From Chondrosia reniformis (Eukaryota; Porifera; Demospongiae; Chondrillida; Chondrillidae): DNA of 64,000 bases. The stretch's first letter is position 1; the number at the start of each line of letters is the position of its first letter. The stretch covers positions 6,958,501-7,022,500 of the forward strand of contig OX359189.1 in assembly GCA_947172415.1 (NCBI GenBank). The letters are read 5' to 3'. Positions 22,246 through 54,941 of the stretch are shown piece by piece. The position numbers were made by a program, and so were the translations under genes. Below the pieces are notes generated by a model. That model was not told the origin of the DNA and searched no databases. It saw nothing but the letters and a program-made list of their open reading frames with translations.

Positions 22246-23151
22246 CATATGTCTATAATGATACACATACATGAATTTCACTGGGTCAGATAGCTGTACA
22301 CAATGGCCTGTCTAGGCTTCATTTCTCAAGAACTACATAAACTTCCTTTAGTGTTTCTTTGATGGTGGTGCGGTGTCATGCTGCTGTAAAGCATCAGAAG
22401 TGAAACATTTTCATTCAATGGGTCAGCACCATTTAGCACGTAACTGTCACATCTGAAAGTTGTTACAATACAAACCTTTAACCACGTAACCATGGTAGTT
22501 GTTTTGCTATAAGTGGTAGCACACTCACTCAAGCCTACACCATTCAAAGGATACTGTCATGCTCTACAAATAAGGAAATCACGCTGTCTTGGTGCGCATA
22601 GTTGCTTCACTAGAGAGCAAAATAATAAAACGTATTTTATATTGATAGAGACGCCTACAAATTATATTATTTTCCGTTTTTACCGTAGTATTAAAGTGAA
22701 TGACTTTATAAAATCTATCATACTCTATCGGGTACTAAAAAGAGCATTGTTCATCCGAGATCCTTTGTTGTCTTTATTTAGTTCTTACAGTTGGAACAAT
22801 GGCAATAGGTACGTTAGTCTCAAATTGAAGCTATTCGCGTGTACGTGTAGAACTGAAGGTAATAGCCAAACGTTCATCATATTAACTAAGCCTTTTTGTG
22901 GACAAGAATTGGAATACGATGAATTATTAGTTTATTATATATTCCCTTTGTCACAGTTCTTCGAATATTCAACATTACTTACCTTCTATGTATAGGCTAT
23001 AGCTCTGCCTTATATGTTGGAATATCTGTACATATTAATTCCCTCAACCCCTAATATTTGGAAAAAAATAGGGGAACTTTAAGATCTAAAGCCGATCTTA
23101 AAGCATCGATGTCATCATCATTACACCTAATATTTTACCTAATATTTCCAG
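22246..23151. other. Gap before the TM exon; no confident exon
   Basis: A 160-codon frame at 22513-22995 reads through, but its composition (KIRKSRCL, IIFRFYRSI) shows no domain and no convincing signal peptide or splice structure. It could contain unrecognised upstream exons of the gene ending at 23531, but I cannot support any. Confidence 0.35.
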
Positions 23152-23531
23152 GTTTTGCCACCACTTTCGATACTATTGGACTAGTAGCGGATGTGCTCGT
23201 GCTTCTGGGTATCCTCATAGTGCTGGTGGTCGTGGTACTGTATGTAATCTACAACAGGGGATCTAGCAAGAAGACTGACAACCAACTTAAAGAATCTGAC
23301 AAGACAGTTGGTATATACGAGAAGGACACCTTTGAAATGCACCATAATCCTGGCTATGATTCTCTAACCTTTGGTGGTGGTAAAAATGAAAGTACTAGCA
23401 CCACTCCTGATAATTGCAACATATATGATTCTCTTGATGAGAAAACCTCTGATATCGCAAAAGATTCTGCTGATGAATCCAAAGATAGTGGTTCTGGCTA
23501 TGCTAATGATGATGAAGAATTCACAAAGTAA
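23152..23531 (+). CDS. Terminal exon of a single-pass membrane protein with NPGY tail (partial)
   Basis: An acceptor ends at 23151 (TATTTCCAG). The exon begins in phase 1, as the membrane exons of nearby receptors do. It encodes a strong hydrophobic helix (LVADVLVLLGILIVLVVVVL), then NRGSSKK as stop-transfer, then about 85 acidic, Ser/Asp-rich residues ending DDEEFTK and a stop. The tail contains HNPGYDSL (an NPxY motif with a following YxxL) and NIYDSLDE, both plausible phosphotyrosine or PTB/SH2 docking sites. Upstream extracellular exons were not identified, so start and ectodomain are unknown. The in-frame codons before the acceptor are probably intron. Confidence 0.6.
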
Positions 23532-25318: not shown

Positions 25319-25368
25319 CAAGGGGGATTCCCTGTAGAGCACCACCCACTCTTGCGTAATAATTCAAG
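25319..25368 (+). promoter_or_regulatory. Conserved 5' flank shared by the pseudokinase pair
   Basis: AAGGGGGATTCCCTGTAGAG followed by CACC and CCAC lies immediately before the start ATG. The same block occurs before the ATG of the paralogue (33529-33590). It is conserved more than flanking sequence, so it probably holds 5'UTR or core-promoter elements copied with the gene. No TATA box is evident. Confidence 0.5.
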
Positions 25369-27490
25369 ATGGAATTGCAGGGAGTGTTGGAGAAGGACAA
25401 TGTTCTCTTTGAGGGTAGCTTTGGAGTTCTGTTGGAAGGTTACTGGTTAGACTCTCCGTGCTTAGTACGTATCCCAACGATACAAGAAAATTTCAAAATT
25501 AGCGATAGCATCAGAAAGTGGAGTGCGATACGGCATCCTCACATTGTTCAATTCCTCGGGACTACCAAAGACAAAGAAGATATCAGATTCATAGTGACGG
25601 AATATCTTCCTTTTAACCTAACGAGTCTTCTTGGGGTGAGAAAGAGAGAACGTTTTCCCTTGTTCGTTAAGGCTCGGCTTCTTCTTGGTGTGGCTAGAGC
25701 CCTTAATTTCCTTCACTCCAAGGACCCCGTTATTATTCACAAGAACGTGACGGCCTCTTGCGTGTTTGTATCTCCGGATATGTCAGCCAAGCTGGACCTC
25801 GGATCTGTGTTTAACACTCACGACGGCGCAGATATAGAACGCCACCACCTTCCTCCAGAAGTAACTCTTCAAGACTCGGTGGATGTGTATCTAGATAGCT
25901 ATACTAAAGCGGGTGATATGTTTTCACTCGGAGTACTGTGTCTTCACGTACTCATTCAGGAACTACCGACACCGAAACCGTCATTCCGTGTGATCGACGA
26001 GGACCAGGCATTCTTTTACAGCGAGATTGAGCGAAGGGATATTTACTTGGAGAAATTAACGGGACAGGAGCGACTATTTCTACCACTCATAACTCGATGC
26101 ATAAAGGGTTCCATGGATGAGCGTCCCCCAGCAGATGAATTCATGGCGAGCCTATCACAATTGCTCGTTCAGTTATGCCGGCAATGCGAAGATGTCCTTG
26201 ACGAAACTGTTGCAAATATCCACAGTAAAATTTCTGAAGTTTCGTTACAGAATGAAGTAATTAGCTCTGAAACAAAACATATTCGCAGCCAACTTAGTAA
26301 TTTCCTGGAAATGCCTTCGAATGAGACCTATGTGCCTAATTCTCCTCCTCTGGATAAATCACGAAGCTTAAGGTTTAACCTGTCGATAAATGCGGCCAAT
26401 CGTTCTGTTAGGACACTACCTAGTAAGAGTGTCGAGGGGATGAGGAGCAGTTACAGGCTTACGGAGCAACATTCACTTACCTCCTCACTGGATTCCGTTT
26501 TCCAAAGTGAACTTGACGACTCCCTCAGAGTAAGTTTGTGTACGCATTCATTGTTAATGAAACTCTTAAATGTATAGTACTGTAATACCCAAATCATGCA
26601 GTATGTACAATCTGTACCCATGGTTTCATGGGATAAAAATGCTTTGTGGTCAGCACTTAGTATAAGGAAACCACCAGTTTTTAGTTGTGGGAGTACTTTA
26701 GTATTTTTCATGCATGACAACGTTGTTGTAGTAATTAAATATGATAACTAAACCTCTCTCAAATGCAATCAATTTTCAATATCTAAAACAAGGAAACTCC
26801 ATTATAAAATCAAGTCCCTTTATTATACTAAACTCATCTCTCAGCTTTCTAAATGATGCCATTACTTTGTAGGTTGCCAATTTTGGCAGGACTCCCAACT
26901 CCCAACACGACAATCATATATATAGCAGCCATTTTTTGCCCAAAGATTGCATTTTAAATCAAACAATTCCCAAAAACAAAATAATATTTTGTCAATCTTA
27001 TTTTTTTGCACTTAAAATTGAAAGTTAGGTTTTAATTTCCATTTTCTATTTTCAATAGAGTACCACCTCAAGTGAATTTGTTCCAACAGCAAGAAATCTT
27101 GCATCTGATCCTTCTGCATATCCAGATCACTTCAAACTTGATGAAGTTAATGAAATTGTAAGAGAAGTCACCGGTTCCGTGAATTCTTCAAGAAAGTATT
27201 TTGGTAGTCCTTTGCTATCCTCTTGCAGTTCACGTGAACCCTCTTTAGAGGAGGACAATGAAGTGGTTGAGATGCAAAAGAACCCAGCCTATTTTACATG
27301 TCAAAGAGAGAGATTTACTCAAGGTGGTCAGGAGAGTGAAGCTCCAGTTGTTATGCAAAGAAATCCAGCATATCTTACTTGCCGAAAGTTGAGACAAGTT
27401 GATGAAAATGAATATGAGACAGTTGAGATTCAATCAAATCCAGCACATCACCAAAATATAATGTCAAGGAGCAAAGACAGAAAAAATTAA
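25369..27490 (+). CDS. TKL-like pseudokinase with triple NPAY-type tail (copy 1)
   Basis: Two exons, 25369-26529 and 27059-27490 (phase-0 intron), give 530 residues. The kinase-like domain spans about residues 8-275. The loop GSFG is present. The VAxK lysine position is Arg34 (CLVRI). HRD is HKN (124-126), so the catalytic base is lost, and DFG is DLG (143-145) with its Asp kept. These changes predict little or no phosphotransfer and a scaffold role. A helical, probably coiled-coil segment follows (about 275-320). The C-terminal exon carries three spaced repeats of the form V-E-M-Q-x-NPAY: NPAY at 462-465, NPAY at 489-492 and NPAH at 514-517 (Tyr lost). NPxY motifs bind PTB domains. No signal peptide or membrane helix, so cytosolic. 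The start ATG follows a flank conserved with the paralogue. Related to the N-terminal domain of the genes at 42053 and 48718. Confidence 0.88.
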
Positions 27491-28615: not shown

Positions 28616-29858
28616 ATGATGTCGGGGCAAATCAGGATCAAAAACCAGGAGCAAGGGATGCACGAGTTATCGCTCAACTTCACACAAATTGGTCAATTTA
28701 TTAAAAGTATCTTTCCTGATGAATCAGTTGACGTTTTCTTTGTAAATTCTGTAAAGGGAAGCGATGAAGAATCACCTCCGCCATCAAAACGACAAAAGGA
28801 ATCACCTGAAGATGAAGAGTTTATCCAACCATTTCGTATTGGCGTACATCGCGCTGTACTATCAGTGTTTTCTAACCATTTCAAAGCTATGTTTACAGGG
28901 AAATAGAAAGAAAAGGCGATGGAAGAAATTCCAATCAAAAGAGGACTATATACAAGGGAGTGTCTTTCGAAAGATGATCGATTTTCTCTATGCCAATAAG
29001 ATAAGAGTAACAGAAGATGAAGCCAGTGGTCTATATGGAGCGGCCGATTACTATGATATTCCTAGTCTAAAGGATTTTATAGCGGATACCATACCCAATT
29101 GGAGAGATCAAAACATGATTGTGAAATTATGTTCAAAGATTGCCAAATTGGAACCTAATGATATTGAAACCCATAGAAATTTCCAATTGTGTCAAGGACC
29201 AATACTTGAGAAGTTTGGAAAACTAGACTTGTCGTCGTTACCATGTGAGGCTATGGAATACTTTCTTAAATCGGATGGCATTGTTGCAACTGAAGTAGAG
29301 ATATTTGAAGTACTACAGAAATGGATAGAGTTCCAGTCTAATGACATATCAAAGGAGAAACTGAAATCCTATGCCTACCATATTCGTTATGGAACTCTCT
29401 CCCAAAGAGAATTGACAATGGTGGTATCAACATCACAGTACTATCCCAGGGATGAATTTAGCCTGGCTCTGCAGCAGCATGAGAGCTTCTCCATTGATGT
29501 TTTAATGGCTAACAAAAGACTCTTCCAACCAAGAAGTACACAGAAGAGGATTGTTAATTACGGACATCCTGAATCATCTACTTTTGCTATTGTAATTCAT
29601 GAGAATGCAATAAGAGATTCCTCAGAGCAAGCACTTCAAATACCAACTCAGAAATTGCCAGTCAAAGTATTCCTCCAAAATGCACTCGTTGTGAAGAAAG
29701 ACAATCAGTTACTAGTAGATAATTCTCAATTGTTTATTGGAGAGAAAGGTGGAAAATTCATCTTGAAGTTGTTTAATGGCCATAGCATGTATCGGAAATT
29801 TAATTATTCTATTGAGATTGAAGCTAAATATCCAATTATAATATTTTTTGCTAAATAA
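28616..29858 (+). pseudogene. BTB-BACK domain gene, intronless, two lesions
   Basis: The first frame (28616-28906) encodes the N-terminal half of a BTB/POZ domain (VDVFFV, then IGVHRAVLSVFSNHFKAMF). It ends in TAG at 28904. The same frame would continue KEKAMEEIPIK. The rest is then in another frame from AAAA at 28937-28940 onward (EDYIQGSVFRKMIDFLYANK). It completes the BTB fold, followed by a BACK region (MIVKLCSKIAKLEPND, WIEFQSNDISKEKL) and an unassigned C-terminal part ending FFAK at 29858. No Kelch repeats. One stop and one single-base frameshift in an otherwise continuous sequence suggest a young pseudogene, possibly a retrocopy, or assembly errors. The family usually serves as Cullin-3 substrate adaptors. 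AATAAA overlaps the stop codon. Confidence 0.75.
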
Positions 29859-33319: not shown

Positions 33320-33528
33320 ACACATGCACTTTACAACCATTGTTCCATAGTTTTTTTATATATATGTCAGACAAGGAGCTATATTGCTTGCAATTGGTTA
33401 TAATTTGCATTATGAAGCATCCTTTCTTGTAACTGCACGGTTAAATATTTTCATACTGCAATGCGTGTTTATAAGTAGGTTGTCTCCTGTATGAAAGTAT
33501 AGTAAGTGATTAGGCTAGAGAGCCTACT

Positions 33529-33590
33529 CAAGGGGGATTCCCTGTAGAGCACCTCCCACATGCACGTGCAACTGGCATAATTATTTGAAG
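33529..33590 (+). promoter_or_regulatory. Conserved 5' flank of pseudokinase copy 2
   Basis: Carries the same AAGGGGGATTCCCTGTAGAG, then CACC and CCAC block as copy 1, directly before the ATG at 33591. A likely duplicated core promoter or 5'UTR. Confidence 0.5.
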
Positions 33591-36161
33591 ATGGAATCCT
33601 TGCAGGGAGTGTTGGAAAAGGACAATGTTCTCTTTGAGGGTAGCTTTGGAGTTCTGTTGGAAGGTTACTGGTTAGACTCTCCGTGCTTAGTACGTATCCT
33701 AACGATACAAGAAAATTTCAAAATTGGCGAAAACATCAGACAGTGGAGTGCGATACGGCATCCTCACATTGTTCAATTCCTCGGGACTACCAAAGACAAA
33801 GAAGATATCAGATTCATAGTGACGGAATATCTTCCTTTCAACCTAACAAGTCTTCTTGAGGTGAGAGAGAGAGAACGTTTTCCCTTGTTCGTTAAGGCTC
33901 GGCTTCTTCTTGGTGTGGCTAGAGCCCTAAATTTCCTTCACTCCAAGGACCCCGTTATTATTCACAAGAGCGTGACGGCCTCTTGCGTGTTTGTATCTCC
34001 AGATATGTCAGCCAAGCTGGACCTCGGATCAGTGTTTAACACTCACGACGGCGCAGATATAGAATGCCACCATCTCCCTCCAGAAGTAATTCTCCAAGAC
34101 TCGGTGGATGTGTATCTAGATAGCTTTACTAAAGCGGGTGATATGTTTTCAATCGGAGTACTGTGTCTTCACGTACTCATTCAGGAACTACCGATGCCTA
34201 GCCGCTTAGTTCGGATGATCGATGAAGTTCAAGCGGTCTTTTTCAACGAGATTGAGCGCAGAGATGTTTATTTTAAGAAGCTTGTAGGGCAAGAAAAACT
34301 CTTTCGTCCTCTTATAATACAATGTTTGGAAAACTTCATGGATGACCGTCCCCCAGCAGAAGAATTCATGGCGAGCCTATCACAGTTGCTCGTTCAGTTA
34401 TGCCGGCAATACGAAGATGTCCTTGACGAAACTGTTGCAAATATCCACAGTAAAATTTCTGAAGTTTCGTTACAGAATGAAGCAATTAGCTCTGAAACAA
34501 AACATATTCGCGGCCAACTCAGTAATTTCCTGGAAATGCCTTCAAATGAGACCTTTGTACCTAATTCTCCTCCTCTGGATAAGTCATGGATACCACAGCA
34601 TGCACCTATCTCACGCTCTATGACATCTCCCCTTGGGAGTGGAGAGGGGAAGATTAAGCATACAAAAGTAAGGAAACAAGATTCACTTCATCCCTCAAAG
34701 AGTGAGACCTTCTACCCCAGTGACCTTGAATTGACAGGTTCTATTAAAGTGAGTTACATGATAATTTTGCAAGGAAATGTAAACGTAGAATTAATACATT
34801 GAATTAATAGTCTTAAAGTCATCGATCCTCAAACCTTTTTTCTATTTGTGCATTATTTTATTAACTTGAGAGTATAATACTTACATGATGAGGGAATTGG
34901 GGATATATGTACATATATGTACAATGCATAAACCAATTTACTTAGCTCAATATAATGCAGGCTAATTGGTTTGGAAGTTAGTATATAACGGATAAGACTA
35001 ATGGAAGTATTAGGAATCACCCCACTGAATATAGATCACTATTAAATATATACAGCTCAGTGGCCAAGTATATATATTGATTTATAATCCAGCCGCATGT
35101 TGTTTACTCATATGATATGATGTCCATGAGAATTACCATTTGCTTTGCTGTATATTGCTATATACTGTAAAACCATGCATTAATATTGGAGTACCATTAA
35201 TGTTTCAGTACTTTTTGGTGGTCCAGACTGGACGTTGCAATCGGTACTATATTACCATAACAAACTTTCATTAGAATGACGTCACCATGCATGCATGCAT
35301 GTACCTTTTATGATTACCGATTGCAATGTCTGGTCTGGACAACCGATCCAAAAAGTACTGTAGCGAAATTAGCAATGCGATATCATTCGCTAACATTTAT
35401 GGGCACTAAAAATGTTTATTATTTCGCTTGCGCAGTAGTGTGCCACGTTGTGAGTTATATAAGTGCAAAATAGAATCCTTCCTGTACAACAGGTTGCAGA
35501 AAAGAAAATAGTTGTACTCTTTGCTGCCAAGTTGTGATGACCCATATACTAGTACTTCTGCAGCAAATCAGAGTGTGGAGCAAGTACTTACAACATAACG
35601 CTAAATCTAATGGATGTTAATATTAATGGCCGTGTGGTTAAACAGTATATATATATATAACAGTACCTGCATGGGTAACACTATGCACTCTTATTAATAT
35701 ATATATATCTTGTGCTGTATGTCAACTCATGTCTCCTAAAGTATATAATTCCAGTACCTGATGATACTTAGATCATCAATATAATAATAATAATTCTTCA
35801 ATTCAAATGCTATTATATATTCCCACAGTGTATGACATCAGATTGTGCACATGACAATGGTAATAAGCAACCTGAACCTAAATCTTCAAGAAAATCCTTG
35901 GACCTCTTCAGCATTGATGAATTAGATATTAAAAAATTCTCCGAAGCTGTTAATTTTACTAGGTCCTGGAGTAATTCTACTACTGGTTGTCCTTCGATGT
36001 CCCACACGCATGGCAGTTCACATGAACCCTCTTTAGAGGAGGACGATGAAGTGGTTGAGATGCAAAAGAACCCAGCCTATTCTCCGTGTCAAAGGGAGAG
36101 TCTCAGGTTTACTCAAAGATGGTATGACATTGAAGCAGTTCATGATGATCATTGCTCATAA
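33591..36161 (+). CDS. TKL-like pseudokinase with NPAY tail (copy 2)
   Basis: Two exons, 33591-34748 and 35829-36161 (phase 0), give 496 residues. Most of the kinase-like domain is nearly identical to copy 1 at 25369, including Arg instead of the VAxK Lys (residue 35) and DLG (144-146). The HRD position is HKS (125-127). A block at 34194-34336 diverges sharply from copy 1 while both flanks stay near-identical. The helical region after the kinase domain is conserved (LSQLLVQLCRQ ... ISEVSLQNE), then the two proteins diverge. The tail exon keeps EPSLEED(D/N)EVVEMQ and one NPAY (467-470) instead of three repeats. A MITE sits in the intron. Predicted catalytically dead cytosolic scaffold; the in-frame codons before ATG 33591 are not needed. 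Confidence 0.88.
35206..35360. mobile_element. MITE in the intron of pseudokinase copy 2
   Basis: Ends form long inverted repeats. Left: CAGTACTTTTTGGTGGTCCA, continuing to TTGCAATCGGTA. Right, reversed: CAGTACTTTTTGGATCGGTT, continuing to TTGCAATCGGTA. Short (about 155 bp), non-coding; superfamily not certain. A TA follows the right end, but the left flank is not a clean match. Confidence 0.75.
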
Positions 36162-42052: not shown

Positions 42053-45000
42053 ATGGCAGAAAAGTCGAAATTTGTACTAAATGCTCTGAGTCATCTCACC
42101 CTAACTGGCGTCGAGCTAACCAATAACCCAGTTGATGTTGGGCTCTTCGGTACTATAGTCGAAGCGGAATGGTTTGGTACACCTTGCGCCGCTAAGATGC
42201 TTCCTGAAGGAGATGCTAAGGATAGCTACCTATCAGATAAGTTTCTGTGCGAACTGACGCTATGGAATGAACTGAAGCATCCAAATATTTTACAGTTTCT
42301 TGGAGTTTATTTCCCCAAAACGATGAGTTATCCCGTAATTGTGACAGAATTACAGCAGCACAACCTTGCCAAACTACTGAAGAAGACAAAGCAGGAATAT
42401 TTCCCCATTCAAACCAAGGCCTCGATTCTTTTAGATATAGCTTTGGCTGTACGATACCTACATTCGCTGGATCCCCCTATTCTCCTTCGTGGCCTTAATG
42501 CCAACAGTATCTACCTTACACAGTCAATGAAGGCCAAGTTGGGAGATTTTGGTGCTGCTGTCAGGGCGACTGACAAGTCTCATACCTCGAGAAGGACTCC
42601 GAAGAACACCAACCCTATTGTGTGTCCCGACTACAGCTGGCCAGAACCGTATACCTCCACAGCTTCCGATGTCTTCTCGTTTGGAGATCTGATCCTGCAC
42701 GTCCTGTTGAACGAGCCGCCCACGCCACAAGCCAAGGTGGTAAACAATGGCAAAGATCACAGCAAGGTAGTTGCAGAGTACCAGAGGAGACAGCACCACA
42801 TTACATCGCTATGGAGCGAGGCACAGCTCTTTAAGCCACTTATTGTCAGTTGTCTACAAAACAGTCCAGAGAATAGACCAACCTTTCAATCTCTAGCAGA
42901 AAGCATTGAAACTATCAAATCGTGTCTAGCTGAAAAGCTTAACTATGAATGCGACTTTCTGAGCCTCCTAGACCTTCAAGTCAAGCTGCAGGAGAAACGA
43001 GAGGTTCTCCATTCCAACAAAGTCAATCTCAGCAAGTTCAAAATGAACCTGACACAGTTTCTCCATAGCAACAAGTATGCTTTTCCGGAAGGACAGAGGT
43101 CTGGGTCTCCGCAGCTAAGGAATACCCCCAGGAGAGGAAATGTTGATTCCAGTGAAAGCCTCAAAGATAGAGGATATGAATCAATGGAGCGAGCTCCAAG
43201 TGTACCACCGAGATGCAAATCAAATGAATATTACGAAAAAGTGGTTAGTAATACACATCATGCAGAACAGTTCAATATACTGTAAATGGTCCAAACACCT
43301 TTTAAGACTAGGGAAAACCTTTAATAACATAATTAAATAAGACTTTGTTCTTCCCACAGAACACGCCAACTGTTGCCATAGTTACAAAAGGATGTGACAA
43401 ATCAGGTGTAGTCCGTGGAGACAAGGTGACAGTTTTGTCCAAAGGGAGGGAGTGTTGGCAGGTACAAACCTCGCAGACTGGGCAGGTTGAACATCTGCAT
43501 CCACAGTATTTGGAAGTTGTAAAGCCAATTGAGGATGAAGTGTAAGTGTCAAATAAAATCAATCTAAAGCTACGAAAGAGGCTCATTTTCAACTAAATAT
43601 TATTCCAGGACCTATAGCTCTAATGTATTATGTAATGGTATTGAAATGAGATATAATTATTTGGAATAAATACTTTTATGATCAGATAACAAGTTAATTG
43701 ATTAATTGTATAATCTTTTATAGAATAACACTAGCATACCTTTATGTACTAATATGTAAGTCAAGTTAAACAGAATTTCTATGTGACAAATTCTGTAAAT
43801 TCCTTTTATGTATACACATGGTTATAACTCATATACGTAGATAGTATTATAGTTTCTATTTATGTGGTGATGAACTCAACGTTAACGTATGCAACTTATT
43901 GGAATAGTCTAATTGTGTTATAAAAGGCTTGTGAACTTGCTGATATTTGTCTACCTATTTCCTTCGGGTGTGTCCATAAGAGGTAATTAAATACCTTATC
44001 TATAAACTTATAGATTGGCTGTTTAAATCATTCAGTCTGTCCAACCAATCATCTGTCCTGACTGATTATGAGTCTGGGAGCCACATCAGACAGTCAATCA
44101 TGAATCTAGTCTATGACCTTGGTTAGCGTGGCCATAGTATAATTCTATATATGGGATGCCTGAAATTGTATCTTTTTAAAAAATGTTGAAGCTGTACTGA
44201 AACGTAAACACTGAATCTAAAAATTATTTATCCAATACTCTGATACATAATTTGTCACAGTTGCTTGCTAACGAAACATTAACTCAAGGAAAACGGCTAC
44301 AGTATTACAACACTGTATGGTGATAGGTGAATAATCACCAGGAGATATTACACCTGACCAACCAAGTGACCAATGTCTTATCTTGGCTGAGGGATAAAAT
44401 TCTCATAGCAACAGTGATTGCCAAAATGGAAAAATTATCAAAGAACAACAGACAGCTGTTTCACCCCAGCCAGGAACAGACTTAATCACTTGGTGGGTCA
44501 CACTCCAGTTATTCACTTATCATCATAGCCTTTGCACAGGCTCAGCACAATTAACATTATTCTGTACTTGTGTAAGTATCAAGTCATCATGTGTATTATC
44601 ACACATACGATAGTTTGTAGCGAGGGTTTTGCACAGCACAGATAAAGAGTTCAACAAACTGCATTTTGTCTTCTATTATATATGATTGTTGCATTTTATG
44701 TATATATTCATTTAAGCCATTACTCAGTGCATTTTGGTGCACCATTTATATTATGCCCCAAATACAGCCAATCAGAATATTGGAACAGATTCTGTAATTT
44801 TATACAAGTCAAATCTCTTTATAAGACGAATAACTTTTGTAGCAGTCGATCACTGAGACGTATATACTGTATTATGTTACAAATTGATCACTTTCCTACA
44901 ATGTTGACACATAAATGGTTACCTCATTTCCACTAAATAACTTCAATCAGTTGCCTTTTCTACATGTATATGCAACTATATAGGGTTGTATAATTCACCC

Positions 45001-47854
45001 TAACAAGTAAACAATATACTGATCATTATTTATGACTTAGTTAATATTGGTGTGGAGTTCTAATTACATCTCTCCTACTTAGAATTGATTATCAATTAGT
45101 TCAGTTACATCTTAGTGCTTCATTCCCAGTGCCTTTGCAAACTAACTTAACTTGCTTCAAAGTTAGTATATCATCTGATAATGACCATATTGTTCCCAGG
45201 TTGTTGTTTTATTTGTTTTTATTTGTATGTGTATACAGTTTATATAAACTGGAAGGTATATGCACATTCTCCACTTAGGGGGACTGTATATACTGCTAGA
45301 AAAGGAACACAAAACTAATTCTTTCTATATAATCGTGGAAATTATAACAATTTTGTATGGTCAATCTAAGAGACATGATTAAGAAGATGAATTAATTTTA
45401 ATATTAACATTATTAGTCCACTTTGCGTGTGTATGAATAAAAGAGCTGGAAAATTGAGCTTCAACTTAAATTTTCTACTTTTTATGGTGTCCAAATGCAA
45501 GTATCGTTTCTCTTAATTATTGGATTGACATCTGTTCAAGTAACGTTAACTTATATAATACCTGTCAACCTTTTAATTCTCAAGTGAAAATAGTATATAA
45601 GGTAATTGCCAGAAACAGTAAATTGACCACTAACTAGCAACCAGCTAGAACAAGTTATTAAGTCACTTCCTAGCAACCAGCACTTCCTAGCAATCAGCAC
45701 TTCCTAGCAACCAGCTAGAACAAGTTATTAAGTCACTTCCTAGCAACCAGCACTTCCTAGCAACCAGCTAGAACAAGTTATTAAATGTCACTTCCTATAT
45801 AGCAACCAGCAATATATGGTTACACACAATTATGCATGGAATATAGAGTGTCACTGCCTGCCTTAAACAGGTCAGATGGGACATACATCTCTTAGACAAT
45901 GATCCTCTGCTTAAGTGGCTTAATGCAATGTATTGATTACTCTTTGTGAAACATACATAAGTATAAAGTAGTAGCTATATATAGGCATAACATTTAGGAA
46001 AATGATTGTTCATAAGATAAGTACGTACGTAGGTGTTAAATGCCCAATCTAGCGAGTTCCTTTTGTTCTTACTTTGAGTTTGATTGCCTGTAGTACCGGT
46101 ATGTGGCCTTATAACCAGATTTAGGGAGAGGTGGGGAGGGTTCTTGATGCATCCCATTCTCTCAGTATTAGTCATAGTCTTAATGGGGACTAATATTAAC
46201 CTTTCTGTTACACGCCTTTGCCTAACTTTGCCCCTCCCCCTTTTCTAGATAAGCCCTTGTAAACCTCAGAATGCCAATATTACAATGTGTTCAAAAGGAT
46301 TGTGTAAATATTGTCTGTGAATATTTGCAATGCTGCATTTTGTGGTGTACGGTAACCATGGAAACATAAATATAATTAGGCAATGAATAATATTATGGAT
46401 TCATTTAGAATGTGATATAATATTATTTATAAATTATGCGCTTAAAACTTTCTTTTGCTGTTTCAGTATGTTCAGGGTACCTACCTAATCTTTCCAATAA
46501 AATAAATTGAAAATGCATACTGTCTGATATTTACAAAACTCATAACAAGAAAATTAGAAATATGAGTGTTACTAGGTAGTGAACATGTGAAAGGGATATA
46601 TAGATATATCATATATTCACAGTATCACCTCATATATATGCATAATACAGTCTACAGTATTAAAACTGCTCTTTTGTGTAATGTAAGTGAATAGTGAATG
46701 TCTCTTTTCTGAAATGCAGATGGTTCTCCAGAATGTGCAGGGAAGATATGGATGCTCATTTGCGCAAACAGTATATCCCAAATAGTTGCTTTGCAGTTCG
46801 AAAAGGTGGCATTGATGGACACGTGCTTGCAGTCAAATCTGGTGGAAAGGTACACTATTACCAGATATTCAAAAAAGGCGAGCACAACTACTCTTTGAAC
46901 GAGGCAGGGGACAGCAGTTATGTGACAATCAGCGAGCTCATTCACACTCATTTGAGGAGAAAACTTGGTCTCCCCTGCCTACTGACCTTCCCGTACATAA
47001 GTGCTAGAAAAGAAATTCCTAGGGAAACTTTCACAATGGATCAGGAGCTTCACAAGGGTGAAGTGTATGACATCTGGCAAGGCCGATTTGCCAAAGATAA
47101 AGGAGTGGAGATCAGTGTGGCTGTAAAGAGTGTTCTGATGGAGGAACAGGAGTCAAAAGATGTTCTCAAATCCTTCTACAACAATGCGGTGGTGCTGTCT
47201 TATATCCAAAGGCTTGGTAGCCATAGTAATATTATCAATCTGTACGGCATTTGTTGGTGGAGCAAGCAAGCTCTTCTAGTTGAAGAACTTTGTGCAGAAG
47301 GAAACTTATCTGAGTACCTCCACAACAAAGGGTCTTCCCTCACTAACGAGCACTGCACTAGCATATGCCATCAAGTTGCTTCTGCACTTGCTTTCTTGGA
47401 AGAACACAAGATTGTCCATCGCGAGGTTGCAGCTGACAGCGTCCTTGTTACCCACACAGGGGAATGCAAATTGGCAAGCTTTCACAAAGCTACCACATTG
47501 GCCAAAGCCAGAGATGAAATTCAAAAGAGGCTGTTGTCAGTGGTTACCAAATTTTCAAGATGGATGGCACCGGAAGTGTTCTTATCGAGTGACCTTCCCT
47601 ACACTATCAAATCAGATGTGTGGTCCTTTGGTATGCTAATGGTACAGGTTTTCTCTCTGGGACAGGTACCTTATTACGGGGTGGCGGACAGTGATGTAAC
47701 AGTCTACATTCAGGATGGAAAGCTGCCCCAATTTCCTCCTTGTTGTACACATGACATTGGAAGGGTTATCAGAGACTGTCTGGAGTTCACCCCTCAAAAT
47801 AGGCCACCATTTTATCAATTAGAGAAAGAACTCAAATCATTAACTTGTATTTAA
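42053..47854 (+). CDS. TKL-like kinase + SH3-like + SH2 + tyrosine-kinase-like protein (copy 1)
   Basis: Three exons joining in frame: 42053-43243, 43360-43541, 46720-47854; about 835 residues. Residues about 15-295 form a TKL-like kinase domain with GLFG loop, Lys48 (CAAKML) and DFG (165-167), but LRG instead of HRD (145-147), so the catalytic Asp is missing. Exon 2 is an SH3-like module (VVRGDKVTVLSK ... CWQVQ ... YLEVVKP). Exon 3 opens with SH2 (WFSRM ... CFAVRKGG, the FLVR arginine; HYYQIF), ending GLPCLLTFPY. A tyrosine-kinase-like domain follows: VAVK Lys present, HRD changed to HRE, its Asn to Ser, DFG changed to SFH, while MAPEVF and DVWSFG remain. Both kinase domains therefore look catalytically impaired. 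The order is SH3-SH2-kinase as in Src/Csk relatives, with an additional kinase domain in front; two kinase-like domains recall JAK, but FERM is absent. Cytosolic. The second intron (about 3.2 kb) holds tandem repeats. Confidence 0.9.
45615..45810. repeat. Tandem repeat in intron 2 of dual-kinase copy 1
   Basis: Repeats built from CACTTCCTAGCAACCAGC and CTAGAACAAGTTATTAAGTC; about three larger units with shorter internal duplications. Non-coding. Confidence 0.85.
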
Positions 47855-47861
47855 CGGTCTG

Positions 47862-47867
47862 AATAAA
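47862..47867 (+). terminator. Poly(A) signal AATAAA
   Basis: AATAAA begins 8 bases after the stop codon of dual-kinase copy 1; a T-rich stretch follows. This implies a very short 3'UTR. Confidence 0.55.
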
Positions 47868-47974
47868 CATATTATTTTCACTTTTTGTGTTGTTTTTGAG
47901 TAAGAATGTGACTTGCAATTGTATATCAAATTGAATATTGATCTATAAATGGAATAATATTTCATTTATATATA

Positions 47975-48115
47975 TTATTATTATTATTATTATTATTATT
48001 AGAGTGCCCATGCATACAACAAATGTATAAAATGCAAACCAAAGCTGGTTAAGGGGCACAGGGCTATAACACAAGAATGTACTTCACAGGACAGATCAAG
48101 GAAATAAATATAATG
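47975..48115 (-). mobile_element. SINE-like element with (TAA)n tail, second copy
   Basis: The plus strand shows (ATT)n then AGAGTGCCCATGC ... AAAGCTGGTTAAGGGGCACA. On the minus strand this is the same 3' end and TAA tail as the element at 21740-21978. The 5' GC-rich body seen there is missing or diverged here, so the copy is 5'-truncated, as retroposed copies often are. Confidence 0.6.
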
Positions 48116-48717
48116 ATCACTGCATTGACTGATCATGAATTCACATTTTATCTTAAAAACTTTGCAATTACCTCCTGGCCTTTTTATACAGTATAAAATA
48201 CATTAAATATATACTTCAGAATCTGGTTTAAAATTGGAAATGAATTTTATTGATTGAATTAAGTTTCAATTTAGGTATAGAATTTAAAGTTTTGATGATG
48301 TCAAACGATTTCTGATCAATAATATATATAATATGTTCATGCTATGTAAACAGTTATAGCTAGTCTTATTGCGTGGGACACATATCCCATTTTTATACTG
48401 TTATCAACGTAGAACAACTGTCAGTCTTTAATTACATTTGTAATGTCTACAATTATGTTTCAAGTGTAGGCGTTTCCCAAATCCCAAATCGATGACCTTG
48501 CTGGCCGAGAGCGCTTATTTTGGGCAATTAGCTATAATACATTGCACGTGTCCACGTAACGTATATTCGGACTGGCCTAGGAAGGAATTCTTTAAACAAA
48601 TGGCTACTCATGGCTCCTCAAAGGCTTCCAGTAGCAGATAAAAGACGAAAACAATAAGTCATATTTAAGGTTACATCATCCTCCACGCCCTGATTGTAAT
48701 CTATACAAGTTTGAGAT
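48116..48717. other. Intergenic between the two dual-kinase genes
   Basis: Should contain the promoter of copy 2. No canonical TATA box; GCAGATAAAAG lies near 48633. CCACGCCC occurs near 48685, as CACGCCC does before copy 1. No exon seen. Confidence 0.4.
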
Positions 48718-51700
48718 ATGGCAGTATTTCAGGCAAGACCATTTTCGCAACACGATCTTGTCCAGCTTAAGAGAATGACAATCATGGACGTAGTTCTAAG
48801 TAATCGTCCGGTAGATGTAGGTCTATTCGGTACTATCGTAGAAGCCGAATGGCATGGAACACACTGCGCTGCAAAGATGCTTTCGGAAGAAGATGCAAAG
48901 AAGTCGTATCTCTCAGAGAGTTTTATCAACGAGCTGACTTTGTGGAACGAACTGAAGCACCCCAACATTCTGCAGTTCTTTGGAATTTTCTTTCCCAAGA
49001 CGCTATCTCATCCTGTGATCGTTACCGAGCTTCAGCATCACAACCTGGCTAAGGTCATCAAAGAAAGGGGTGCTGCCATTCCCATCCAAATCAAGGCTTC
49101 CATCCTGGTTGATGTTGCTCTGGCATTGCGGTACCTGCACTCCTTGCCCAAGCCCATCATACTGAGAGATCTTAGCGCGAGCTGCGTCTATCTCACAAAG
49201 GAATTTACAGCAAAATTGGGGGATTTTGGAAATGCGATTCAGCTGAATCACTCCGTTACCACGCGTCCTGGCTCAATGGGAAATCTACCCAAATCACTAC
49301 CAGAAAATCCCTGGCCGGAGCGGTATTCATCCGTCTATTCAGACGCTTTTTGCTATGGTGATTTGATATTGCACGTTCTTTTGAATGATTTTCCGATGCC
49401 AGATTCTAAGCTGTCCTCTACAGGACGAGACAAGTTTGAAATCAAAACAGAATACCAGCGTCGCAGAAGATACTTACAAAGTTTGCAGAATCAGGAAAAG
49501 CAATACCTTCCTGTGATAGAGCGTTGCCTAGACAACCATCCTGACAACAGACCCAAGTTCAAAGACCTAACGGCCAGTCTTGGAATTATAAAGGCACAGA
49601 TAGAGTCTGTACAACTACCAAATGAGACCAAGATTTCCAAGCGACCACCCACTATAACTCCAAGGACTGGTACGCACTCGAGTTCAAGGATGCTACAATC
49701 AACAAATTCAAACCCGCCAGTTGCAAAAGAAAGACCCTCTAAACAGCAGAGTGATATCAATGACAGAAGCTATGAGATAATGTTTGGTGCAGAGCGATCC
49801 GACAAGTTGACAGCTTCAGAAGAAAATGGATATGTAACAGCGCCCAAGCTAAATGCAGTTAGTCTATCTGCATACCAAAGCTCTCACTAGGTTTAGTTCC
49901 CTATAGGCCCCTTTTACTCTAAAGTAGATGTAGCATGTTGAAAATTGTGTGTTAAGTTATTTATACACATAAAGTTTATGCCAAACTAACCTTCAGTCGT
50001 CTCTTGAGAACATATAAATTACCTTATTAGTGTAATGTACGTATCTTGGGTATATATAAACATCAATATACAATGGCAGTGACATACAGTTATAGGGATC
50101 CTCAAACTGGTTTATATGTAAGAGTGGTTGGTTTCTGAATTAGAACATGAAGCAACCATAACAACGTACATGAGGATTATCAGTGACACTTAGACCTCAA
50201 TAGTGTGAATTCTAATCTAAACAGGGTCAACTATGGCTATGTCTGGACCGCCCAATAATTTGTTTTTGGCACCAAATCTGAATATAATTTATATAAAAAT
50301 ACATACCAGTAAAGTATACATTCATTCATTTTCAACTTCCTACATTCACAAACCTTAAATGTTCAAAATACACAAATGCATGTGTACGTATACAAAAGTG
50401 CACTTGAAATTAGCACAAGTAGTATCTGTTGGTATACTGGCTGGGAGGCCATACAGTGTGAATCAAAACTAAGAGAGTATTATTGAAAGGCTTCTAAAAG
50501 CTTTCAGTCATACTACACACACTTACAATTATATCTCCTCTATTGTTTAGAAACTGCCCTCCTTCATTAAAACAGCAATCCTATTGAAAGACTATAACAG
50601 CCTTGTTCGAGGAGACAAAGTGACTGTCCTCGATAAGTCATCTGACAAGTGTCGTGTGCAAGCTTTCCGTGATGGGCAAGTTGAGATAGTACCTCAGGAC
50701 ATTCTTCAAATGTTGAAGCCGATTGAAGATGAACCGTAAGCATTAAGATTCCTTCAGTGTTATAATCTTTCATGGCAGCATTAAGATTCCTATTAGTAGA
50801 ACTAGCAACTTTCATAATAAGCAGGGAGTATAAGATTGACAAGACGTACTTTGGCCTCATACACATAAGGTCTTTCAAGAACATTTTACGTTTAGAGAAT
50901 GTAATTATGGTGTATGGAATCCTTGACTGACTTATACTATGTTTTTTTGTTCCATTGTACACAGGTGGTTTTCCAAGATGCAAAAGAATGCTCTAGATGA
51001 ACATTTAAGGAAAGAGTACATCCCCAACGAAACCTTTGCGGTCCGTGAAGGAGGGAATAACGGCTATGTCCTCGTACTGAAGCACCAGAACACACTTATA
51101 TACTACCAAATCTTTAAGAAGAACAGTCGATACCACATCAGTCAAACAGGCCAACCAAACTTCCTGACAGTAAAAGAGCTGGTTGGAGCTTACTCAAAGA
51201 GAAAACTGGGACTTCCCTGTTTGCTGACATTCCCCTACATCAGTGCTAGGAGGGAAATCCCCCAGGTATCTGTGCTTCGGGAGAAGGACATGTACGAAGG
51301 TAAACACTTTAACATTTGGGAGGGAAGGTTTGCAAAGGAGAAAGACCTCACTGTGACTGTAGCAGTGAAGTGCATATCTCGGGACTACAAGAGAGCAAGA
51401 GACAACAAGAATGCCTTGTATAATGAGGGTTGTGTTCTATCCTACCTTCAGAGATTGGGAGGGCACATCCATATCCTATCAATGCACGGGATTTGGTGGT
51501 GGAGCGAACACTGTTTTCTGATACAGGAGTTCTGCAGGGAAGGGAATCTGCTTCAGTACATAGGAGCCCACAAAGCAGATATAACTAGTTCCCACTGCGT
51601 CAATTATTGTACTCAAATAGCCTCAGCAATGGCCTTTCTAGAGAAACACCAAATTGTTCACAGGAACCTCAGAGGGAGCAATGTCCTGGTGGACCATTCT

Positions 51701-52087
51701 GGCCAGTGCAAACTTAGTGGCTTTCATTGTGCCACCACGCAAGCAAAAGCTGAGGATAGCTATGAAGGCAAACTGTACTCTGTATTGGCTGCACCGAGAT
51801 GGACAGCCCCTGAGGTCTTCAAACCGCAACCAATATACACCATCAAGTCAGATGTGTGGTCCTTTGGCTTGTTAACAGTACAGATCTACTCTCTCGGGGA
51901 GGAACCTTTTGCGAGCATATCAGATGCTAATGTACAGCAGCATATACAGGAGGGCCATCTACCAGACATACCCATAACCTGCCAATGCTGCACATCTACC
52001 ATCATAGGCTATTGCCTGAACATCAGACCGGAGAAAAGACCGTCATTTTTTGCTCTTGAGGAACAATTTCGGAAAATATTTTACTGA
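48718..52087 (+). CDS. TKL-like kinase + SH3-like + SH2 + tyrosine-kinase-like protein (copy 2)
   Basis: Three exons in frame: 48718-49857, 50551-50735, 50965-52087; 815 residues. Intron phases (0, then 2) match copy 1, and the first donor is GTTAGT in both, so this is a tandem duplicate. The TKL-like domain keeps GLFG, Lys53, LRD (149-151, catalytic Asp present) and DFG (169-171), but the catalytic-loop Asn is Cys156. It is the best candidate for an active kinase in the cluster. The SH3-like exon reads LVRGDKVTVLDK ... KCRVQAF. SH2 has WFSKM and TFAVREGG (binding Arg kept), with IYYQIF where copy 1 has HYYQIF. The C-terminal domain has VAVK, HRN instead of HRD and GFH instead of DFG, with TAPEVF and DVWSFG retained: a pseudokinase. 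Intron 1 contains an R1 fragment. Confidence 0.9.
49884..49945 (+). repeat. R1 fragment in intron 1 of dual-kinase copy 2
   Basis: CTAGGTTTAGTTCCCTATAG followed by GCCCCTTTTACTCTAAAGTA and GATGTAGCATG: the 3' part of R1, same subfamily as 22108-22245. It lies just beyond the exon 1 donor and is readable in frame from it, so an intron-retained transcript would translate into it only briefly. Confidence 0.65.
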
Positions 52088-53576
52088 AAAAGTACCCACT
52101 TCCACCTCCTTTTTCTTTTTGTGTTGTATCATATAACATTTTTGACTGATTCTCACATTTATTCATTGATTTAAGTTGCTGTGCAATTAATCCCCCCACC
52201 CCCCATACCTGAGTGTGCTTATCCCACTATTTTGAACACTGGTATACTTATATTTCAAAACTCCATAAATGTTCCTATTGAAAATGAAACTGAATTATCT
52301 ATGGAGTAGATATGCCTAAGAAGAGATATTTATGTTAAAACAAATTTCTGATAACTGAAATGCTCTAAGTACTTGTTGGTATGGAGTTATGTAATGAAAT
52401 TAGTAACCTAACAACAGTAGTACCACCTCACTTGATATTCGATCTGTTTGATGAGGTGAACTTAAAAGGCACATAGGCAGTGAGATATATTTATGGAAAG
52501 ACACATCTTCCTACTAATGCATACAAGATTATGGAGACCTTATGTTCAAAGGGAATCAAGGAACTTCCAGAGTCACTGATGAAGGGTGGAATTCCCAGAA
52601 ACACCTGTCTGGCCCAGTGAGCAGGAGGAGAAGACTCTTGTATCCTCATCCAAAGCTCTCGCTACATTTATTTGTTCCTCTATAAGCCTGTTACTAGAAT
52701 AGACACAACATGTAGAAAGATGCCATTTTAGGTATTTCATGTATATCGCAATTAAGATACTTAACTATCATATGTGCACAGTACACTTCACTGCATAAAT
52801 AAAACCCCATCATTTACACAAAAATCACCATATTTAAAGGACATACATTAACAAAATGTAGTTATTGTAAGTATACCACAAGTAGTGAATATAAATTCAA
52901 TATATGGTAATGGTTGCCCACTTTATCCTCAAATAACTGAGAGGAGTAACAATACATCCTTTGGACTGAAGCGTTAGGAATGAACAACTTTCCTTAACCA
53001 GAAGACACAGCCCAACATCACCAACCTACCTACCTATCTCACAAGCCAGTTTAATAACCTTTATCACAAAGGGTCACTTTAAAGATTTTCTTATCACAAA
53101 GGGTCACTTTAAAGACTTTCATCTCTCAAGGGTCAGATTACAGACAAATGTTTTGTCTGAGGGTTCACTTTAGCTACACCATAGATTATATAGACTGCAT
53201 AGTCTATATAATCTACCCCTATTTATTTGTTACAAAGGTCAACACATATGTAACAGGAAAGATATTTAGACAATTTTGCTCTATATGTACATAAAATGCA
53301 CTATACATACTTGTTCCATACTGAAGAGCAACAGGCTAAAGTAAAGGCCTCAAGGCACCTTATAAAACTACTGCTTTCAATTCTAAAAACCTCTGCTTAC
53401 TCTGTAAACTTAGGATCACCATAGAAATAAATATCTAACTTTATCAGTCCCAGAAATAGTTTCAATTGCAATGTTACAGTGTATGCACATACAGCATTAT
53501 ATTACGTACATACATATAAAGTACAGTGAATTTGGGGACAATGCCCAAACACTAAAATTGTACAGTTTTAAAGAAT
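52088..53576. other. Intergenic between the kinase cluster and ATP5PF
   Basis: Contains an R1 copy (separate entry), a two-copy duplication of TTATCACAAAGGGTCACTTT around 53060-53110, and a short inverted repeat around TATAGACTGCATAGTCTATA (near 53190). No exon seen. Confidence 0.5.
52560..52745 (+). repeat. R1 dispersed repeat
   Basis: Has CACTGATGAAGGGTGGAATT, CCCAGAAACACCTGTCTG, AGACTCTTGTATCCTCATCC, AAAGCTCTCGC and ATAGACACAACATGTAG. A moderately diverged copy with a deletion in the GAAGAAGATGAAAG stretch. Confidence 0.8.
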
Positions 53577-53775
53577 TGGCTGGGGTAGGCGTGTACTGTT
53601 GAGGTAGGCGTGTACTGTTGAGGTAGGCGTGTACTGTTGAGGTAGGCGTGTACTGTTGAGGTAGGCGTGTACTGTTGAGGTAGGTGTGTACTGTTGAGGT
53701 AGGCGTGTACTGTTGAGGTAGGCGTGTACTGTTGAGGTAGGCGTGTACTGTTGAGGTAGGCGTGTACTGTTGAGG
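53577..53775. repeat. 19-bp minisatellite, about 10 copies
   Basis: Near-perfect head-to-tail units of GAGGTAGGCGTGTACTGTT (one with GTGTG in place of GCGTG). It lies about 140 bp beyond the stop codon of the minus-strand ATP5PF gene, so may be within or close to its 3'UTR. The minus-strand ORF crossing it is a repeat artefact. Confidence 0.95.
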
Positions 53776-53913
53776 AGGAAGAACTAATGGGGGAGCATTG
53801 CATAGTAAAGCTTAATAAACACGCCAATTCACAACTTACATTCAGTAGACATAGCAGGTACAACTTAAATACAGATAGTTATGAGGTCAGGAATACTACA
53901 TCTAATGCAAGTT

Positions 53914-54228
53914 TTAGTCCTTAAAGTTAAATTCTGGAAACTTCTCTAAATCTCCACCGCCATACTGCTTCTTGACTCGCTCTAGTTCATTAGCGTGTCT
54001 GACTTTGAATTCAGGAGTCAAGTCGGGTAGCTGTCCGCCCTTTGACTTGACCTGGTATTCACTCAGCTTGTCCAAAAAGATTTGCTTCACTGGGTCGTCC
54101 ATTTTCTTTTGTCCAGCAAGCAAAGCGCTCGTTGTAAGTGTTCTTAAGGAGTTAACTGGGAGGTTGAGTCGTAGACAAGCGGTTCTCCATGATGCAACCT
54201 TAGATACCTGAAGCAGAGCTGACGCCAT
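53914..54228 (-). CDS. ATP5PF: Mitochondrial ATP synthase coupling factor 6 (subunit F6)
   Basis: A complete 104-residue protein, close to the usual 105-110. Residues 1-37 form a basic, Ser/Leu-rich mitochondrial presequence (MASALLQVSKVASWR, TLTTSALLAGQ). The mature part has the family hallmarks: DPVKQIFLDKLSEY, then KGGQLPDLTPEF, a helix ELERVKKQYGG and the C-terminal FPEFNFKD (the family's FPxFxFEDP-type end, here ending at D). F6 is part of the peripheral stalk linking F1 to Fo in the inner membrane. The coding region has no intron. It is head to head with COPA, so the two may share a promoter. Confidence 0.95.
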   Translation of the reverse strand: MASALLQVSKVASWRTACLRLNLPVNSLRTLTTSALLAGQKKMDDPVKQIFLDKLSEYQVKSKGGQLPDLTPEFKVRHANELERVKKQYGGGDLEKFPEFNFKD

Positions 54229-54941
54229 TTTTGCAGTTCACGGATTAGATACATAAACAATTTATACAGAAATATAGGAATTATTTCATATACTTTTTGA
54301 TAACGGATAGCGTAAAATTCCGTATACTGGTGAAACACACGTTGGTATGATCCTTTGTGTCCATGAATGAATGAAAGGACGACATGCTAACCAAATTTGA
54401 AACGCAGTCCCACAGAGTAAAGGGTAAGCAGAGGTGTATAGGCTTTCTGTTTGCGTGTGAACAGATGGAGCCATTAGTGTTAATCAGTTAATATACGCAT
54501 TGTTTGGCAAGGTCTGGGAGAAGCTCCCTTTATAATATTTAAAATTTTATTGTACCTTTAAATAATTGTTTAGCGATTAAAACTTGCAATGCGATCTGTT
54601 CTTAAAACAATTATAAAGCCAGCGTATGTGTATTCTAAATAATGCCCACTACTTCCAGAATCCATTGAAGACAGTTACCTTATGAACCATTGTTTAATCA
54701 TATATGGATATTATACGTGAAGAAACCAGTTAAATCTCTCTTGTAGAAATGGCTTAATTGAAGACCTTGTAGTATTCAGGGTTGTTTTAGAGGTGTACTT
54801 ATTAGTTCATGATTTTTATATTTTGGTTTACCAAAAAGTTACCATTATTATAGTTTTTCAACATTTCCAGGTGTAAAGTTTAATTCTTAAAATTGTAAAA
54901 ATACAAAACAATATTCATCTCCTCCTGATGCCTTCCTGTAG
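54229..54941. promoter_or_regulatory. Divergent ATP5PF/COPA intergenic region
   Basis: About 700 bp separate the ATP5PF start from the first COPA exon I can recognise. It should hold both promoters and the missing 5' COPA exon encoding the initiating Met (family N-terminus before the first WD repeat). I searched by eye and found no convincing start exon. No TATA box is clear, as expected for housekeeping genes. Confidence 0.45.

Follow-up and report, generated by a model that had tools for sequence, protein, structure and literature searches.

A sponge tandem gene pair predicted to join TKL-type and Src-type pseudokinase folds through SH3-like and SH2 domains

The window analyzed here, a stretch of 64,000 nucleotides from the sponge Chondrosia reniformis (C1:6958501-7022500), contains a tandem pair of genes with three exons each, termed genes A and B (Table 1). 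It belongs to a genome of 117,379,552 bases in 15 contigs that was searched as a whole; the assembly odChoReni1 is described as comprising 117.37 Mb in 14 chromosomes and a mitochondrial genome (PMC12181767). The joined exons encode 835 amino acids in gene A and 815 in gene B, with a single, terminal stop in each frame. The initial annotation had claimed two adjacent genes with matching intron phases, joined at 43243/43360, 43541/46720, 49857/50551 and 50735/50965, and all four junctions proved exact in the DNA: the exons are in frame, the four introns are all GT-AG, and the phases are 0 and then 2 in both genes. Intron 2 of gene A is long (3.2 kb). Judged by the DNA, the gene pair with the claimed exon structure can be regarded as confirmed.

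Table 1. Positions of the two genes, their domains and motifs, and two related open frames within the window.
Feature	Position	Strand	Remarks
Upstream TKL-type pseudokinase open frame	25363..26577	+	HKN, C for Asn, DLG, VAIK Lys->Arg
Second upstream TKL-type pseudokinase open frame	33519..34802	+	HKS, DLG, VAIK Lys->Arg
Gene A exon 1	42053..43243	+	TKL-like pseudokinase domain K1 (about residues 15-290) and linker
Gene A K1 catalytic-loop equivalent	42485..42508	+	LRGLNANS; against HRDxxxxN: H->L, D->G, N->S
Gene A linker motifs	43172..43213	+	GYESM (YxxM) and PSVPPR (PxxPx[KR])
Gene A exon 2	43360..43541	+	degenerate SH3
Gene A exon 3	46720..47854	+	SH2 and Src-type pseudokinase K2, stop included
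Gene A SH2	about 46721-46999	+	FAVR motif 46787-46804
Gene A K2	about 47033-47833	+	Src-type pseudokinase
Gene A K2 motifs	47417..47485	+	HREVAADS for HRDxxxxN, SFH for DFG
Gene B exon 1	48718..49857	+	TKL-like pseudokinase K1 (about residues 19-295) and linker
Gene B K1 catalytic-loop equivalent	49162..49185	+	LRDLSASC; H->L, Asn->C
Gene B K1 DFG	49219-49230	+	kept, GDFG
Gene B linker motif	49768-49782	+	SYEIM (YxxM)
Gene B exon 2	50551..50735	+	degenerate SH3
Gene B exon 3	50965..52087	+	SH2 and Src-type pseudokinase K2, stop included
Gene B SH2	about 50966-51244	+	FAVR motif 51032-51049
Gene B K2	about 51284-52066	+	Src-type pseudokinase
Gene B K2 motifs	51659..51727	+	HRNLRGSN for HRDxxxxN, GFH for DFG

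The two proteins share 45% identity over their whole length, with values of 56% for K1, 22% for the linker, 41% for SH3, 54% for SH2 and 44% for K2. Across 802 codons the differences amount to 342, 243 and 518 at positions 1, 2 and 3, respectively, and in each of the five segments position 2 differs least and position 3 most. Because of this excess at third positions, and because relatives with 39-51% identity to gene B are present in other assemblies, the frames are beyond chance. For the comparisons below, the K1 set comprised eight sequences: genes A and B plus P0001 and P0130-P0134, whose E values reach at most 9e-69 before a gap to 7e-10. The nine sequences of the K2 set are genes A and B with P0056-P0062, found at 6e-86 or better and followed by a match at 2e-27. 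The close database relatives are unannotated ena/jgi entries and none comes from an annotated proteome; one of these searches scored the 7,998 candidates that had the most words in common with the query. A scan of genome_contigs with alignment A1 returned 41 pattern matches and a scan of viral_contigs with P0001 returned seven, none of which was confirmed. When the sponge genome was searched with the SH2-K2 exon of gene B, only gene B itself (100%) and gene A (47%) stood high among the 110 matches listed, followed by five matches on contig 9 with 25-30% identity. An exon-by-exon search found no further copy of the whole architecture in the genome among the matches listed, and when the window was searched with profiles in all six frames, no third SH3 or SH2 emerged.

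According to our analysis, each gene encodes a TKL-like kinase domain, a linker, an SH3-like segment, an SH2 domain and a tyrosine-kinase-like domain, in the order that the initial annotation had read from the DNA. This order was borne out by profile searches and by the product of gene B exons 2+3, which aligns end to end, over residues 17-427, with the SH3-SH2-kinase unit of Hck (E 8e-36), so that the C-terminal half displays the domain order of the Src family. Hck is outscored in total by a chain in which the EGFR kinase occurs twice, since that chain is matched two times. The HMM searches of the translated proteins that had been suggested recovered two kinase stretches per protein by Pfam, and no SH2, SH3 or FERM match at E<=0.001 in the proteins of genes A and B. 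With the Pfam SH2 cut-off at 21 bits, P0056 (30.6 bits) and P0059 (34.1 bits) lie above it, and P0061 (20.3 bits), gene B (18.6 bits) and gene A (16.3 bits) below. Among 60 listed PDB matches, the SH2 segment of P0056 found the SH2 chains of Syk and Fyn and also a few unrelated chains. The FLVR-type arginine reported for the SH2 domain is present as FAVR in genes A and B; it is conserved in 7/9 sequences and missing from P0061 and P0062. For SH3, the best Pfam score is a chance-level 11.7 bits in gene B, with no match in gene A or P0001. A three-segment SH3 profile searched against PDB matched mainly SH3 chains among the best 60 of 115 matches (best E 4.5e-4), with non-SH3 chains entering this list from E 0.07. 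The canonical ALYDY and the Trp pair are lost, which makes ligand binding by the SH3 doubtful. Exon 1 of gene B found plant CTR1 as its nearest PDB match, a reconstructed Src-Abl ancestor third, and then RAF and TNNI3K. The nearest relatives of K1 in the genome are of TKL type, judged by their CTR1/RAF/TNNI3K-like PDB matches, and K1 is accordingly closest to TKL.

The initial annotation had proposed that a Src/Csk-type gene acquired an upstream kinase domain. The Src part of this proposal gained support from an intron and from a tree. On contig 9, five SH2-kinase exons (L006, L031, L032, L033 and L035) start a single base ahead of the codon for the SH2 Trp, and since exon 3 of genes A and B has the same start, the phase-2 intron is common to all of them. 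HRD, Asn and DFG are kept in all five contig 9 exons. Clear Src-type SH3 exons are present in two stretches of the contig 9 cluster, one of these exons being likewise followed by a phase-2 donor. A tree of 34 kinase domains was rooted at the midpoint and contained no Abl, Csk, Syk or JAK as reference. In it, the K2 domains formed a single clade (100/100) on a stem of 1.68, inside a Src-type group of 22 rows (95/94); a Leptobrachium kinase stands as their sister, a placement that the length of the stem makes uncertain. The Csk part is not favored, as Csk chains scored below Hck, Abl and Src in the PDB search. Kinship with JAK gained no support either, there being no FERM at E<=0.001 and no complete catalytic set in either kinase domain. 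The linker between SH2 and kinase measures 5 aa in the K2 proteins (by pattern match in 6/9; by gap-free alignment for genes A and B and P0057) vs 17-23 aa in the five contig 9 genes, and a Src-type tyrosine tail, present in 4/5 of the latter, is absent from the K2 proteins. The terminal residue of gene B is a tyrosine, yet it forms no Src-type tail. The elements by which Src inhibits itself are lost at the sequence level. The proteins start with MAEK and MAVF, without a Met-Gly myristoyl start, and open with a kinase fold.

The K1 half was placed in a tree restricted to TKL genes of this genome and database relatives. The two upstream open frames of the window, which share 86% identity over 255 columns, fall on the K1 side of this tree (100/99) on a long branch (1.85), and no SH3 or SH2 was found alongside them when the window was searched with profiles in six frames. 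We posit that a TKL exon was fitted onto a Src-type SH3-SH2-kinase gene and that catalysis was subsequently lost in both kinase domains.

The picture of two working kinases that the initial annotation had left standing is not supported by the catalytic residues. In K2, the DFG Asp is absent from all nine sequences (GFH in eight, SFH in gene A), the HRD Asp is present only in the near-identical P0056 and P0058 and replaced by E, Q or N in the others, and the catalytic-loop Asn is present in 8/9; the full set of an active tyrosine kinase (HRD, Asn and DFG), as expected of the Src family, is thus missing from K2. By eye, the glycine loop of K2 looks degenerate. All eight K1 sequences have lost the HRD His, the Mg-binding catalytic-loop Asn (replaced by S, C, F or Y) and the first glycine of the loop, while the HRD Asp is kept in 7/8 and the DFG position reads DFG in four and EFG in four. 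The beta3 Lys is kept throughout (K2 9/9, K1 8/8). The Asp, Asn and DFG are kept in 18/18 of the best-scoring TKL relatives from the same genome outside the window, these being the best of 106 further matches, among which are the two upstream frames. A pseudokinase is defined as a domain without the VAIK Lys, the HRD Asp or the DFG Asp (PMC4718504). By this three-residue rule, K2 is a pseudokinase in 9/9 sequences and K1 in 5/8 (HRD Asp to Gly in gene A, DFG to EFG in P0130-P0133); the K1 domains of gene B, P0001 and P0134 keep all three residues and are without the Asn and the HRD His only. Both kinase domains look catalytically dead. Missing catalytic residues are no proof of inactivity, since CASK is described as transferring phosphate yet having no DFG Asp (PMC4718504).

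The linker between K1 and SH3 carries two kinds of short motifs. YxxM is present in 7/8 sequences, vs 2-14% of shuffles, and PxxPx[KR] in 6/8, vs 0.4-31% of shuffles, where 2000 shuffles per linker kept only the composition and the relatives are not independent. Gene B has no PxxPx[KR] and P0133 neither of the two motifs, and the YxxM tyrosine of P0001 and P0134 differs from that of genes A and B and P0130-P0132. This motif evidence is weak. YxxM is described as the binding site for p85 in HER3 and IRS proteins (PMC3248195). In the sponge genome, an inter-SH2 match of p85 was found on contig 6 (26.2 bits vs a cut-off of 31.5), 1.2 kb downstream of an SH2 match. The same search gave a sub-cut-off match in 1/14 control genomes, the archaeon Methanocaldococcus jannaschii. 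Because the inter-SH2 match is below the cut-off and an archaeal control matched too, the p85 gene can only be called a candidate.

We consider it fairly probable, on the strength of these residues and domains, that the two genes encode non-catalytic pseudokinase adaptors of tyrosine-kinase signaling, assembled from a TKL exon and a Src-type gene. Each gene would give rise to one cytosolic protein with the order TKL pseudokinase K1, linker, SH3-like segment, SH2 and Src-type pseudokinase K2, itself without catalysis. An active tyrosine kinase, for example one of the genome's own Src-type enzymes, may phosphorylate the YxxM tyrosine of the linker, and the linker PxxPx[KR] might be presented to SH3 partners. 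The SH2 domain would dock the protein on a phosphotyrosine of an activated receptor, both pseudokinase folds may serve as binding or allosteric surfaces, and phospho-YxxM might bring in PI3K p85, as it does in HER3 and IRS proteins. The HRD and Asn of K2 in P0056 and P0058, the K1 HRD Asp in 7/8, and the loss of the FLVR Arg in P0061 and P0062 count against this reading. More tentatively, with the case for and against it nearly balanced, we propose a family in which TKL and TK folds were joined with SH3 and SH2 and both kinase folds became non-catalytic binding domains, yielding a phosphotyrosine relay to PI3K, and that local duplication produced four TKL pseudokinase genes within 27 kb.

Alternatively, the proteins could act as negative regulators, competing for the receptor phosphotyrosines and SH3 ligands that active Src-type kinases use, with K1 and K2 possibly pairing with live paralogues and restraining them. 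The conserved FLVR Arg (7/9) and an SH2-kinase module resembling that of the active Src-type genes of the genome, in degenerate form, would suit such competitors, but the recurring YxxM points to positive recruitment, and we consider this possible yet rather unlikely. Slightly less probable still is an enzyme comparable to JAK or CASK, in which K1, or K2 in some members, would still transfer phosphate, weakly or in an unconventional way, under cis regulation by the other kinase domain. The Lys conserved in both domains, the HRD Asp (7/8) and the DFG or EFG (8/8) of K1, the HRD and Asn that P0056 and P0058 retain in K2, and the CASK precedent (PMC4718504) are consistent with an enzyme. Against it stand the K1 Asn lost in 8/8 and the K2 DFG Asp lost in 9/9, the first glycine lost in all K1 loops next to the degenerate look of that of K2, and catalytic residues that differ among relatives, as expected without selection on catalysis.

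Each unit might also consist of two genes, one for a TKL pseudokinase and, downstream of it, a separate one for an SH3-SH2-pseudokinase, with the fusion an artefact of the gene model. The length of intron 2 in gene A and the two upstream TKL pseudokinase frames without a detected SH3-SH2 would fit this, but several observations make it highly improbable. P0001, a JGI entry of 528 aa, holds K1, linker and SH3 in a single reading frame and ends in PIENEM, where genes A and B read PIEDEV and PIEDEP at the phase-2 donor. Genes A and B agree in their junctions and phases, and they group as sister sequences in the trees of K1 (99/99) and K2 (96/93) alike. P0132 (K1) and P0059 (SH2-K2) are both given with the same largest contig (3,565,953). 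Furthermore, the residues VS are present near the frame end in 6/8 K1 proteins (A, B, P0130, P0131, P0132 and P0134). This ending probably reflects read-through of a phase-0 GTnAGn donor; a GTTAGT donor is seen in the DNA of genes A and B, and for the relatives the reading follows from the protein ends only. Four protein-database entries of the C. reniformis genome give a largest contig of 10,369,955 vs 10,409,357 for C1 and may stem from another version or haplotype. Finally, decaying pseudogenes of an active fusion kinase are the least credible origin, for although both catalytic sites are degenerate and the SH3 and SH2 of genes A and B have diverged, the frames are fully open over 835 and 815 codons, the codon differences are concentrated at third positions, and the same losses recur in the open-frame relatives.

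The non-catalytic adaptor is the preferred reading. The claim that the architecture is unlike any described family agrees with our literature search, in which the listed titles and abstract openings of open-access publications contained no description of the K1-SH3-SH2-K2 order (subscription journals and the 2010 Amphimedon kinome work lay outside this scope). New domain combinations as such are not unheard of, since the tyrosine kinases of choanoflagellates are described as having many combinations unknown in animals (PMC3082566). Our verdict is that the domain architecture is real and belongs, in kind, to the already known pseudokinase adaptors. If this is true, an early-branching animal lineage reused entire Src-type kinase genes to make adaptors without catalysis, and one protein can hold two kinase folds of different groups, neither of them enzymatic. 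Since Src-type genes and TKL genes with complete catalytic residues occur in the same genome as the doubly degenerate fusion, it can be tested in which order catalysis was lost.

Among known systems, the Src family shares with the C-terminal half the SH3-SH2-kinase order, the end-to-end alignment to Hck and, in the Src-type genes of this genome, the phase-2 intron before the SH2 Trp. The sponge-specific Src kinases Src-Aque1 (PMC8662651), compared here by their description only, have the same order. The gene A and B proteins differ from Src in the TKL domain that replaces the Src N-terminus, in the degenerate kinase and SH3, in the SH2-kinase linker of 5 aa instead of 17-23, and in the lack of a Src-type tyrosine tail. 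JAKs have the layout FERM-SH2-pseudokinase-kinase, and the likeness to them is limited to a cytosolic protein that combines an SH2 with two kinase folds; here no FERM was found, an SH3 is present, the TKL fold is N-terminal and neither fold has a full catalytic set. Wheat Pm24, one of the plant tandem kinase proteins and likened here by description, combines two kinase-type domains in one chain as a putative kinase-pseudokinase. To our knowledge, plant tandem kinase proteins have no SH3 or SH2. HER3 is a receptor with a single kinase fold, and its catalytic loop reads HRN, as in K2 of gene B. The gene A and B proteins differ from it in having an SH3, an SH2 and a TKL fold, and resemble it in combining a pseudokinase of tyrosine-kinase fold with YxxM sites, which in HER3/ErbB3 are described as serving p85 (PMC3248195). 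PEAK1/2/3 likewise are described as joining a pseudokinase to an unstructured part with SH2/SH3-binding motifs (PMC10279700). They differ in that this unstructured part is N-terminal, the pseudokinase fold is single, and no SH2 or SH3 of their own is part of the protein as described. By analogy, the best reading is that the proteins of genes A and B may work like HER3 or PEAK while being members of neither family.

Two upstream frames of the window encode TKL-type pseudokinases that share 86% identity, and in a tree both group, on a long branch, with K1, the N-terminal TKL-like pseudokinase domain of the tandem genes A and B. Their catalytic motifs read HKN/HKS and DLG, with a Lys-to-Arg replacement, and inspection by eye places a GTAAGT donor at 26530 in frame 1. 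A profile search of all six frames of the window found no SH3 or SH2 domain accompanying either frame.

Features in the window
Feature	Position	Strand
Transmembrane-like segment with tail	23055-23531	+
TKL-type pseudokinase frame 1	25363-26577	+
BTB-BACK (Kelch-like) frame	28755-29858	+
TKL-type pseudokinase frame 2	33519-34802	+
Multi-pass membrane protein, 351 aa	37015-38070	-
STVHAYLNSTRLPQQYTPT-like repeat	about 53497-53878	
Mitochondrial ATP synthase coupling factor 6 frame	53914-54237	-

The BTB-BACK frame lies between the two pseudokinase frames. Adjoining the pseudokinase cluster, by eye, a transmembrane-like segment is followed by a tail with the tyrosine motifs YDSL, YDSL and GYAN; it had no Pfam match over the cut-off and is possibly a receptor end. 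The single-exon 351-aa protein appears GPCR-like by eye, and a Pfam search at 0.1 gave no match for it. Downstream of gene B, the repeated unit, which makes up open frames, looks like a minisatellite.

Outside the window, the frame of the database protein P0133, a K1 relative, is closed by the hydrophobic stretch AALLWSLAGVGLLLILGN, which may be a membrane anchor or intron read-through. On contig 9 of the Chondrosia reniformis genome, two open frames of 395 and 355 aa (1355380-1356363 and 1359696-1360658) each apparently contain three SH2 matches, and would thus seem to be triple-SH2 exons in a tandem pair.
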